From NCBI RefSeq assembly GCF_000170755.1, contig NZ_ABCK01000008.1:1-64000 (forward strand): DNA of 64,000 bases, in the 5' to 3' direction. The first letter of the stretch is position 1; the number at the start of each line of letters is the position of its first letter. This stretch comes from Lentisphaera araneosa HTCC2155. GTDB taxonomy: Bacteria; Verrucomicrobiota; Lentisphaeria; Lentisphaerales; Lentisphaeraceae. This document shows positions 32,486-35,907 of this stretch, one piece after another. The position numbers and the translations under genes were made by a program. The notes beneath the pieces were generated by a model. It had not been told where the DNA came from. It ran no database searches and saw only the letters and a program-made list of their open reading frames with translations.

Positions 32486-34126
32486 ATGTCTGAAGAAGAA
32501 ATGCCGGAAGATCCGTTTGGAATCTTAAGTCCGGAAGAATTGATGGAGATTCAGGAGAACTATCGTAAGCAAAAGCTTAAAGAGTCTTTAGTTGGTCCTG
32601 TTATCTCTACCTGTATGCACGTTCTACTTATTTTTGCCGCTTCATTCTTTAAAGGTGAAAGCAAAGAGGCCAATGCACAAGTAGAAATTACTCAGCAAGT
32701 AGAAGAAGTGATTGAAGAGCCACCACCGCCACCGCCGCCACCACCACCACCGGATGAGCCTGATATGGAAACTGAAGTTGATACAGTTAATCCAGAGATT
32801 ACTGAAACAGTAGATGTGGAAGATGTGGCAACTGAAGTAGAAGAGGTGAGTGATGAGCCACCAGCAGCTGAAATCATGGATGATGTTGAACTCATGTCAG
32901 ATGTTAAGCCGTCGACTTCTCCTATGCAATCTGCTAAAATGTTTAGTGCACGTTCGCCGAATGCAAAATCAGCAGCTCTCCGTAAATATGGTGGTTCAAA
33001 GGCCGCTCAACAAAGCTTACTTAAAGCACTCGACTGGTTAGCTAAAAACCAGAAACCTGATGGATCTTGGGGTAATAGTGGTACAACTGGTTTAGCACTT
33101 CTCGCGTACCTTGCCCATGGTGAAACTCCTAAATCACAGCGCTATGGTAAAACAGTCAGTAAAGCCATTCAGTGGCTCGCAAGTTCAAGCCCAGGTGCCA
33201 ATCTAGTATATACGCCAAACTTCGACAAAGTAGAACGCGTAGTAGGAATTCAGGAAGTGATCCAAGAGGAACTTGGTTTCTTTGCAGCTGGTCCTGCTCA
33301 AGGTACAGGTGATGTAAGAGTTGCGCACGGATACCCGCACGCTATTAAAGTTTATGCATTAGCGGAAGCTTACACAATGACGGGTAACTATAGTATTGAA
33401 CGTCCTTTGAAAGCCTTTGCGGCATTACTCATTAATGGGATGAAGCCTGAGGGTGACTTTGACTATAACTATAAAAAAGGCCCTCGTTGGGATAACTCCA
33501 TTTCATTTTGGAACTATCAGGCACTCAAAGCACTTAAATCTACGGGCTTGGATTTCGAAGGTCTTGACGCAGCTATAGAAAAAGCTATTCCTCGCATGAA
33601 GTTAATGGCGAAGTATCATTTTCCGTACTCAGGTACTTCTAAGCCTACTAAAGGTAGAGGTAATGCAGGTCTCGCAGCAGCAGGTGCTTTATGTCTCCAG
33701 CTCTTAGGCGCAGCAAAGGGCGATGGCAATGTTGATAATATTATGGACCGTCTTGAAAAAGAATCTATTCCTAAGATGGACTGGGAGAACTCCCCAAAGA
33801 AATGGACGATGTACGCTTGGTACTACCAAACTTTTGCAATGTTCCAACACGGTGGTAATCATTGGAAAGGCTGGAATAAAATATTCCAAAATGTTCTCAT
33901 GAAAAACCAACACCCAGAAGGTTACTGGTCACATGAATTAGCATGGGGTGCAGGTAAAAACCTTGAATCAAAGGCATACCAAACTTCTTTGGCGGCTTTG
34001 ATGCTTACAGTTTATTATCGCTACTTGCCTTCTACTTCGGTTAAGAAAACTAAGCCAAAGTCAGCGACTCAGAAAAAGAAAGAGAAAGAAGCTGCTGGTG
34101 GAGAAGAAACTATAGATATCTTCTAA
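32486..34126 (+). CDS. membrane-anchored, proline-linker alpha/alpha-toroid protein, copy 1
   Basis: 546 aa. A cytoplasmic N-terminal helix (DPFGILSPEELMEIQENYRK) is followed by one membrane span (about 36-55), a linker with eleven consecutive prolines (79-89), an acidic Val/Glu-rich region to about 165, and a C-terminal prenyltransferase/squalene-oxidase-type alpha/alpha-toroid (about 170-515) with QW-like repeats such as LDWLAKNQKPDGSWGNSG. The tail is lysine-rich and ends ETIDIF. The layout resembles TonB, TolA or ExbD: short cytoplasmic end, single span, extended periplasmic linker. No terpene-cyclase DxDD motif was seen, so enzymatic activity is doubtful. GAGG precedes the ATG. It has its own terminator and a tandem paralogue. 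Function unknown. Confidence 0.88.
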   Translation: MSEEEMPEDPFGILSPEELMEIQENYRKQKLKESLVGPVISTCMHVLLIFAASFFKGESKEANAQVEITQQVEEVIEEPPPPPPPPPPPDEPDMETEVDTVNPEITETVDVEDVATEVEEVSDEPPAAEIMDDVELMSDVKPSTSPMQSAKMFSARSPNAKSAALRKYGGSKAAQQSLLKALDWLAKNQKPDGSWGNSGTTGLALLAYLAHGETPKSQRYGKTVSKAIQWLASSSPGANLVYTPNFDKVERVVGIQEVIQEELGFFAAGPAQGTGDVRVAHGYPHAIKVYALAEAYTMTGNYSIERPLKAFAALLINGMKPEGDFDYNYKKGPRWDNSISFWNYQALKALKSTGLDFEGLDAAIEKAIPRMKLMAKYHFPYSGTSKPTKGRGNAGLAAAGALCLQLLGAAKGDGNVDNIMDRLEKESIPKMDWENSPKKWTMYAWYYQTFAMFQHGGNHWKGWNKIFQNVLMKNQHPEGYWSHELAWGAGKNLESKAYQTSLAALMLTVYYRYLPSTSVKKTKPKSATQKKKEKEAAGGEETIDIF

Positions 34127-34147
34127 GCTAGAGTTTATAGAGATTTT

Positions 34148-34180
34148 AAAAGCCTTTGCGATTGTCGCAAAGGCTTTTTT
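34148..34180 (+). terminator. intrinsic terminator of toroid gene 1
   Basis: 14-bp stem AAAAGCCTTTGCGA / TCGCAAAGGCTTTT with a TTG loop and T run. Its core stem is nearly identical to the terminator of the second copy. Confidence 0.93.
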
Positions 34181-34207
34181 GTGTATAAACGATAAATATG
34201 AAAAAAG

Positions 34208-34230
34208 TGACAAAAATGACACATTGACAC
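34208..34230. promoter_or_regulatory. TGACA direct-repeat motif upstream of toroid gene 2
   Basis: TGACAAAAATGACACAT followed at once by a third TGACAC. The first 17 bases match the motif at 32402-32418 in 15 positions, and the distance to the start codon is the same to within one base. Confidence 0.55.
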
Positions 34231-34290
34231 TTGCTATCTACTTTTCCTCACATTAGAGTGAATCATTAAGTTAATAAAAGTGAGGTGCTT

Positions 34291-35907
34291 ATGTCAGATC
34301 AAGATCATTTAGAAGACCCATTTGGGCTCTTAAGTTCAGAAGAATTAATTCACATTCAGCAAGAGTATCGCAAGAAGAAACTGAAGGAAACTTTACTGGG
34401 ACCTCTTATTTCTACAGGCTTTCACGTGCTTTTAGTTTTTGCTGTTAGCTTTTATAAAGCAGAGCCCAAAACTGAAAACCCCCAAGTAGAAGTGACTCGT
34501 TCTGTTGATGAAGTCCCTCCCGTGCCTAAGCCAGAACCACCACAAGTTCCTCAAGTAGAACCTACTGTATGTGATCTTCCAATAGTTGATGAAAATAAAC
34601 AAGTGGATAAGCTGTCTATTGATGAGTTGGAGCCGACTGTTGAAGAGTTTTCTATTGATCCTCCTGCGGTAGACATGAGTAATGATATGAGCTCATTAGA
34701 TATTTTAAAACCATCTACATCCACAGGCTTATCATCTTCCATGTTTATCGGTCGCACACCTGAGTCTAAACAAAGATTACGAAGCAAACATAATGCCGAT
34801 CAAACTGAAGAGAGTTTATTAAAAGCCTTGGATTGGCTAGCGAAAAATCAAAGACCGGATGGTTCTTGGGGCAATAGCGGCGTGACGGGTTTAGCTCTCT
34901 TAGCTTATTTAGCTAATGGAGATACACCGCAATCTAAGCGTTATGGTAAAACGGTGAGTAAAGCCATTCAATGGTTGGCCAGTTCAAGTCCAGGAGTTGA
35001 TCTTGTGAGTGCTGTAGGTATTAATTCAAATGATAGAGTTGTGGGTCTACGCAATGTGACCCAAGAAGATCTCACCTATTTTGCTGGTGGCCCGAGTGTG
35101 GGAACTGGTGATGTGCGTGTATTACACGGCTATCCTCACGCCATAAAAGTCTATGCTTTGGCAGAAGCTTACCTGATGACCGGCAATTATAGTTTGGAAA
35201 GGCCTTTGAAAGCGTTTGCGGCTACACTAATCAAGGGGCAAAAAGCAGAAGGGGATTTTGACTATAATTATAAAAAGGGGCCGCGCTGGGATAATTCGAT
35301 TTCCTTTTGGAATTATCAAGCCCTAAAAGCTTTGGATGCGATTGATTTAGAATTTGATGGTCTTGATGAAGCGATTACTCGATCAATTCCTCGCATGAAG
35401 CTCATGGCAAAATATCACTTTCCCTATTCGGGAACATCAAAGCCAAGTGCTGGTCGAGGAAATGCGGGCTTAGCGGCAGCAGGAGCTTTGTGCTTGCAAT
35501 TATTGGGGGCGGCAAAAGGTGACAGTTATGTGGATAATATTATGGATCGCCTTCGCAAAGAAGCTGTGCCTCAAATGAATTGGAATCATTCACCTAAAAA
35601 ATGGGTCATGTATGCTTGGTATTATCAAACCTTTGCGATGTTTCAGCATGGAGGCAAGCATTGGAAAGAATGGAACTCAGCATTTCAAAAAGTTCTCATT
35701 AAAAATCAACATCCCGAGGGTTACTGGTCGCATGAATTAGCTTGGGGAGCAGGGAAGAATGTTGAAGCGAAGGCCTATCAAACTGCGATGTCGGCTTTGA
35801 TGTTTACGGTTTACTTCCGTTATGGTATAGAAGCTGATAGAGCCACAATGAAAAAGAACAGAAAAGAAAAAGCTTTAAATGAAGATGAGACCATCGACAT
35901 ATTTTAG
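34291..35907 (+). CDS. membrane-anchored, proline-linker alpha/alpha-toroid protein, copy 2
   Basis: 538 aa from ATG at 34291 (GAGG six bases upstream; the GTG two codons earlier overlaps that Shine-Dalgarno). Same architecture as copy 1: N-terminal DPFGLLSSEELIHIQQEYRK, one membrane span, a linker and a C-terminal toroid that is almost identical over long stretches (for example KKGPRWDNSISFWNYQALKA). The linker is strongly diverged: no poly-proline run, but scattered PxP (VPPVPKPEPPQVPQVEP). The lysine-rich tail again ends ETIDIF. It arose by tandem duplication of a whole transcription unit. The different linkers suggest different partners, reach or location. No catalytic motif recognised. 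Confidence 0.87.
   Translation: MSDQDHLEDPFGLLSSEELIHIQQEYRKKKLKETLLGPLISTGFHVLLVFAVSFYKAEPKTENPQVEVTRSVDEVPPVPKPEPPQVPQVEPTVCDLPIVDENKQVDKLSIDELEPTVEEFSIDPPAVDMSNDMSSLDILKPSTSTGLSSSMFIGRTPESKQRLRSKHNADQTEESLLKALDWLAKNQRPDGSWGNSGVTGLALLAYLANGDTPQSKRYGKTVSKAIQWLASSSPGVDLVSAVGINSNDRVVGLRNVTQEDLTYFAGGPSVGTGDVRVLHGYPHAIKVYALAEAYLMTGNYSLERPLKAFAATLIKGQKAEGDFDYNYKKGPRWDNSISFWNYQALKALDAIDLEFDGLDEAITRSIPRMKLMAKYHFPYSGTSKPSAGRGNAGLAAAGALCLQLLGAAKGDSYVDNIMDRLRKEAVPQMNWNHSPKKWVMYAWYYQTFAMFQHGGKHWKEWNSAFQKVLIKNQHPEGYWSHELAWGAGKNVEAKAYQTAMSALMFTVYFRYGIEADRATMKKNRKEKALNEDETIDIF

Follow-up and report, generated by a model that had tools for sequence, protein, structure and literature searches.

TonB/TolA-type membrane anchors ending in a terpenoid-cyclase-fold toroid: probable motor-coupled transducers of Lentisphaera araneosa and other Verrucomicrobiota

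Introduction

TonB and TolA count as the standard routes by which the proton energy of the inner membrane is carried to the outer membrane, and the question raised by the present locus is what two adjacent genes of Lentisphaera araneosa HTCC2155, whose products begin like such transducers and end in a terpenoid-cyclase-like toroid, could be doing in the cell envelope. The genes, here called P1 and P2, lie in the first 64,000 nucleotides of contig NZ_ABCK01000008.1 (the window), and a first-pass annotation made from the letters of the DNA had described them as tandem paralogues of a layout reminiscent of TonB/TolA/ExbD-type motor partners, adding that it knew of no described function for such a fusion. 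The analysis reported here leads us to regard P1 and P2, in all likelihood, as transducers of the TonB/TolA class in which the outer-membrane-facing domain is replaced by a toroid of terpenoid-cyclase fold and which are coupled to an ExbB/ExbD motor.

Results and discussion

Architecture and fold

Both open reading frames (ORFs) are intact, and every part of the proposed layout is present in them: the N-terminal motif (D)PFG-(I/L)-LS-x-EEL...YRK, a single hydrophobic span at residues ~37-56, a proline/acidic linker and the toroid. The last of these emerges clearly from the AlphaFold2 model of P1 built on a 67-sequence alignment, in which a long N-terminal helix and a disordered linker are followed by an (alpha/alpha)6 toroid whose 12 helices fall within residues 172-507 at a predicted local distance difference test score of ~95; the AlphaFold model of an operon-type orthologue has the same architecture. 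Foldseek places the toroid closest to AprG and the squalene-hopene cyclases (target TM-score ~0.55-0.66, for single-toroid structures), with the sugar enzymes GH76 and GH105 and also C3 among its further matches, and two complete QW motifs (Q189..W195 and Q475..W481) are present. In profile scans of P1 and P2 the toroid stays below the Pfam and NCBIfam cut-offs, the TIGR cyclase profiles giving 16-23 bits against cut-offs of 322-431 (20.6 and 22.6 bits against 322.7, among others), and domain profile scans of the two proteins return no match to TonB_C, TolA, FHA or vWA.

A shared superfamily fold, underlined by the QW motifs and by the presence of squalene-hopene cyclase and C3 among the Foldseek matches, could suggest a true terpenoid cyclase or a thioester-like trap of the alpha-2-macroglobulin/complement kind; the motifs that define these proteins are, however, absent, as a D.DD search of both P1 and P2 found no catalytic DxDD (in agreement with the first-pass annotation), a search for the GCGEQ thioester motif was equally negative in both, and the cyclase scores fall far short of their cut-offs, all of which makes this explanation extremely improbable. 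Over the family, Y283, Y290, E294, S338, Q345 and Y446 are invariant or nearly so and, lying on helices taken as the inner ring, may line a conserved ligand pocket.

A putative docking motif for the motor

The membrane helices of TonB and TolA share the pattern Ser-x3-His-x6-Leu-x3-Ser, whose Ser and His contact a Ser, a Trp and a Pro of ExbB/TolQ (PMC12215075). Since a search of the PDB with the anchor sequence did not match TonB or TolA, the comparison was made through this motif. In the 67-sequence alignment S41 is conserved at 84% and H45 at 82%, alongside P38 (96%) and G37 (85%), while most other columns of the membrane helix do not exceed ~64%; Ser-x3-His occurs in 88 of 127 family members, Ser-x3-Asn in another five, and the former is kept in all Lentisphaera copies, broken ones included. 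On the side of the motor, W55 in the first and P211 in the third transmembrane helix are invariant in the operon-type ExbB; P211 aligns with the Pro of the third TolQ transmembrane helix, and W55, judged by its position, may be the counterpart of the motor-network Trp.

Directly past the membrane helix, an alternating stretch resembling a D-box is found in 77 of 109 members (37.7 in shuffled sequences), and in P1, where the full pattern of PMC10907165 is not matched, E67 and V68 of the corresponding VEIT stretch are conserved at ~0.78. At the opposite, C-terminal end of the protein, an acidic run leads into a beta-prone stretch with alternating hydrophobic residues (e.g. EETIDIF, DDDLGLDL, DDVKIEIL), a pattern seen in 83 of 127 members as compared with 7.2 in shuffles, an excess that is indicative only, the pattern having been defined after the tails were seen.

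Linkage to ExbB/ExbD operons

Further evidence comes from gene neighbourhoods, in which ExbB, ExbD and TPR proteins were assigned by Pfam. Where the toroid gene is present in single copy it usually closes an operon of the order large TPR - secreted TPR-like - ExbB - ExbD - ExbD - toroid, and ExbB/ExbD lie alongside it in 15 of the 20 Lentisphaeria loci examined. Among 80 named loci (Lentisphaeria, Kiritimatiellae, Opitutia and other Verrucomicrobiota), 53 had at least 3.5 kb of upstream sequence and were counted: 27 of these have an ExbD upstream on the same strand, at a distance of 10-143 nucleotides in 25 cases, and many of the loci without one are dispersed Lentisphaeraceae copies. In counts over 289 genomes that ignore phylogeny, an operon-type ExbB and a toroid protein occur together in 112 and are both missing from 132, with 34 genomes having only the toroid and 11 only the ExbB. 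Of the toroid-only genomes, 28 belong to two families, and the one inspected (L245) does have the operon with a low-scoring ExbB; conversely, two 'ExbB-only' loci (L254, L255) encode, at the position of the toroid gene, a similarly sized protein that has a membrane-helix region at its N-terminus, so that some of the discordance may reflect low sensitivity. Taken with the Ser-x3-His pair, these data strongly support the first-pass proposal of a TonB/TolA-type motor partner; its 'ExbD-type' component does not hold, since the ExbD homologues are separate genes and the toroid proteins are transducer-like.

The same evidence bears on the main rival explanation, according to which P1 and P2 are membrane-tethered periplasmic enzymes, carbohydrate-active or other, whose anchor merely fixes the toroid in place and transmits no force. 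The invariant polar and aromatic residues on several toroid helices do resemble a pocket, AprG, GH76 and GH105 are sugar enzymes, and some copies lie within sulfatase clusters (27 sulfatases across the 26 regions around copies, as against 3 across 18 ExbB regions, a reference that does not establish an excess over the genome's own density). A mere anchor, however, would need neither Ser-x3-His, nor a place behind ExbB-ExbD-ExbD, nor matching ExbB residues, and no catalytic motif of known toroid enzymes was recognised in P1 or P2; we therefore consider a tethered enzyme unlikely.

The orthologous motor operon of Lentisphaera (L116, at ~85 kb of G000:C16) reads PilT-PilC-TPR-s242-ExbB-ExbD-ExbD-ExbD and has no toroid gene; several other Lentisphaeria motor operons also come after PilT-PilC. 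In the distant genome G213 the motor (L256) is likewise detached, with a third ExbD, and three toroid genes lie ~110 kb away. Both motor operons with detached toroid genes thus have three ExbD genes rather than two.

A dispersed and multiplied family

The tandem pair is real, yet it is an incomplete description of a dispersed, phylum-wide family. The family profile matches 146 of 289 sampled Verrucomicrobiota genomes; of 60 Lentisphaeria genomes, 33 contain the family, mostly with few copies each. The present genome carries ~9 copies, dispersed and three of them degenerate: besides P1 and P2, intact copies lie on contigs C21, C25, C2 and C4, and copies broken by frameshifts or internal deletion on C44, C13 and C4 (at 109.6 kb), while the relative G005 has 26 matches, mostly full-length. 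The tree unites the Lentisphaeraceae copies in a single clade (100/100), within which each of the two sampled genera has its own expansion and the P1/P2 group (100/100) is common to three species. The pair is also syntenic in two other Lentisphaera genomes, one of which has three copies, and it is ancient within the genus.

P1 and P2 are 66-68% identical overall, with 81% identity in the toroid and 40% in the linker, and the opposite pattern is found between P1 and the dispersed copies, where the toroids are only 38-44% and the linkers 75-84% identical (linker nonsynonymous divergence, dN, 0.10-0.17). As synonymous sites have reached or come close to saturation in all regions (pS roughly 0.5-1.0), this likeness of the linkers is stated as conservation at the protein level only. 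Recent gene conversion was considered as its cause and left no visible sign, synonymous sites being saturated; older conversion among the copies may have taken place.

These data also allow one to weigh a second rival, namely that only the operon lineages are motor-coupled and that the dispersed Lentisphaera copies, P1 and P2 among them, have left the motor to become free receptors or decaying duplicates. Such copies are indeed unlinked from ExbB/ExbD, three are broken, and the P2 linker has diverged; against this, Ser-x3-His persists in every copy, even the broken ones, dN between orthologues is far below dS, its synonymous equivalent, and the same genomes retain the motor operon, whence we judge a general departure from the motor improbable.

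Two toroid genes stand close together behind ExbB-ExbD-ExbD in other lineages as well (L161, L169, L173, L180, L201 and L204), indicating that tandem duplication recurs. A further tandem pair (L242:8213-11388, genome G145) lies apart from ExbB/ExbD and lacks the acidic C-terminal tail. The copies on C25 and C44 and two L. marina copies (L025, L028, L084, L085) share an upstream block, TTTAAATAAAxACTGAAGGATTC...CAGACTTG...TTTTTAGGATAA, unlike that of P1/P2, which suggests that the promoters were carried along when these copies multiplied.

Proposed mechanism and its weighing

On the preferred reading, that of motor-coupled transducers, the membrane helix would use Ser41 and His45 to dock onto a dedicated ExbB pentamer at its rim, and ExbD would probably grip the strand just past the helix; protons passing through ExbB/ExbD could then power a pull on the Pro-rich linker, acting on whatever the toroid and the acidic, beta-prone tail hold. 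In many lineages a single toroid protein would be made together with its motor from one operon, whereas in the Lentisphaeraceae, where the motor operon is separate and the toroid genes have multiplied, a single motor is probably shared by several toroid effectors. The likeliest ligand would be, with low confidence, an envelope component that is handled at the outer membrane, whether a glycan, a peptide or a lipoprotein; uptake linked to glycans or pili is possible, though rather doubtful.

Several observations weigh against this reading. The conserved toroid residues are compatible with an enzyme too; some divergent relatives, 34 of the 127 family members, lack Ser-x3-His; the later Leu and Ser of the SHLS pattern correspond to A52 and K56 in P1, Leu being the family consensus at 52; the P1/P2 locus has no ExbB/ExbD neighbour; the Akkermansia-type copies lie apart from ExbB; and the co-occurrence counts are uncorrected for phylogeny.

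The closest known relatives of this design are the vWA-ended force transducers published in 2025 (PMC12204202), which, like P1 and P2, combine a transmembrane helix bearing the SHLS His with a motor box (a candidate strand in P1), a Pro-rich linker and a C-terminal domain other than that of TonB, and whose gene order in the Planctomycetes-Verrucomicrobia-Chlamydiae (PVC) group, TPR - tolQ - tolR - tolR - transducer, is matched by the operons of the toroid orthologues. They end, however, in a vWA fold, where P1 and P2 have an (alpha/alpha)6 toroid, and the text of PMC12204202 contains neither 'toroid' nor 'squalene' nor 'Lentisphaer'. E. coli TonB and TolA share with the family Ser-x3-His in the transmembrane helix, a linker and an ExbB/ExbD-type motor partner, but their C-terminal domain, which binds its target by beta-strand addition, is missing from P1 and P2 in favor of the toroid and acidic tail, and the motors of the family differ in having two or three ExbD genes each. 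The AglRQS-GltG gliding motor of Myxococcus, in which the TonB-like transmembrane partner GltG binds AglR, likewise comprises one ExbB-like, two ExbD-like and TPR proteins (PMC3169522); GltG carries FHA and TonB (PF03544) domains and no toroid, the reverse of P1 and P2. With squalene-hopene cyclase and AprG, finally, the fold and QW motifs are common, P1 and P2 differing in the lack of DxDD and in their tethering through a TonB-like helix. The literature searched yielded no description of a toroid-ended transducer, or of ExbD together with a toroid in these organisms. The annotation's remark that no such fusion had been described thus stands for the toroid end and fails for the wider design: the toroid version would be new, whereas TonB/TolA-type transduction and the vWA-ended class were already known.

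A zf-HC2 protein with a transmembrane helix and a YfbK-type vWA domain is encoded at L031:8827-12063 (G000:C9), with an orthologue at L102:4158-6788 in a second Lentisphaera. It has no toroid and carries the poly-Pro linker of the family, its SKMYSARS/KKYGGS (S-K-M-(F/Y)-S-A-R-S) motif and a GDEDVDIF tail, and, given that the vWA-ended transducers of PMC12204202 are encoded in this type of PVC operon, effector domains seem to have been swapped on a shared linker. One may tentatively envisage a modular class of proton-driven trans-envelope machines that have a TonB-like anchor and linker in common and carry interchangeable effectors, all driven by one ExbB/ExbD motor, the Lentisphaeraceae motor powering up to ~25 toroid effectors, each with its own envelope or extracellular ligand; we hold this to be plausible without being convinced of it.

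Were the motor-coupled reading true, the motor would be an all-purpose supply of energy to which different effectors can be fitted, the toroid version being found in about half of the sampled Verrucomicrobiota and having multiplied in the Lentisphaeraceae. Genes labelled only by weak similarity to squalene cyclases would gain a function class, a single histidine, H45, is predicted to be essential, and the manner in which polysaccharide-specialist bacteria move large substrates across the envelope would become testable.

Features of the locus and minor observations

The features of the locus are collected in Table 1. For P2, ATG 34291, which is preceded by GAGGTG, is preferable to GTG 34285 as the start. 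Direct repeats of TGACAAAAR, in two to four units, precede P1, P2 and their orthologues; the 6.02 Mb genome contains the pattern (R)TGACAAAARTGACA just twice, at P1 and at P2, and no match to a reversed control, raising the question of whether these repeats could be the site of a private regulator.

Table 1. Positions of P1, P2 and associated elements in the window
Feature	Coordinates	Strand	Basis or remark
Direct repeat ATGACAAAAGTGACA upstream of P1	32401..32415	+	kept in orthologues
P1, TonB-like anchored toroid protein, 546 aa	32486..34126	+	intact ORF, family profile match
P1 N-terminal helix, residues ~16-57, including membrane span	32531..32656	+	AlphaFold2 model, alignment
P1 S41 and H45	32606-32608 and 32618-32620	+	Ser-x3-His of SHLS motor-binding motif
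P1 Pro/acidic linker, residues 61-157, ending in PSTSPxxSAKMFSxRS motif	32666..32956	+	disordered in model
P1 VEIT (66-69), candidate D-box/motor-box strand directly past membrane span	32681..32692	+	sequence pattern
P1 poly-Pro, residues 79-89	32720-32752	+	within linker
P1 (alpha/alpha)6 toroid, residues 158-515	32957..34030	+	AlphaFold2, Foldseek
P1 C-terminal acidic/beta-prone tail EETIDIF	34103..34123	+	tail pattern
Terminator-like hairpin 3' of P1 (AAGCCTTTGCGA..TCGCAAAGGCTTTTTT)	34148..34181	+	sequence
Direct repeat GTGACAAAAATGACA upstream of P2	34207..34221	+	kept in orthologues
P2, tandem paralogue, 538 aa from ATG 34291	34291..35907	+	ORF list began at GTG 34285
P2 N-terminal helix/membrane span with S41-x3-H45	34336..34461	+	sequence
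P2 toroid, limits approximate	34756..35829	+	81% identity to P1 toroid
P2 C-terminal tail DETIDIF	35884..35904	+	tail pattern
Terminator-like hairpin 3' of P2	35923..35952	+	sequence

A viral origin and spread by plasmids were both considered and rejected, as the comparison with viral folds gave nothing below E 1e-3 and no plasmid matched. Elsewhere, several dispersed copies (L024, L026, L029, L085) lie among sulfatases, some with pseudopilin-type (FTLIELLVVVAIIG) proteins, and an anchor-less toroid protein is encoded at L032:8968-10092 (G000:C11) within a cluster of large membrane proteins that appear BatA-like by eye. Directly downstream of P1/P2, a nickel superoxide dismutase gene (PF09055; 35971-36435, minus strand) is syntenic in both relatives.

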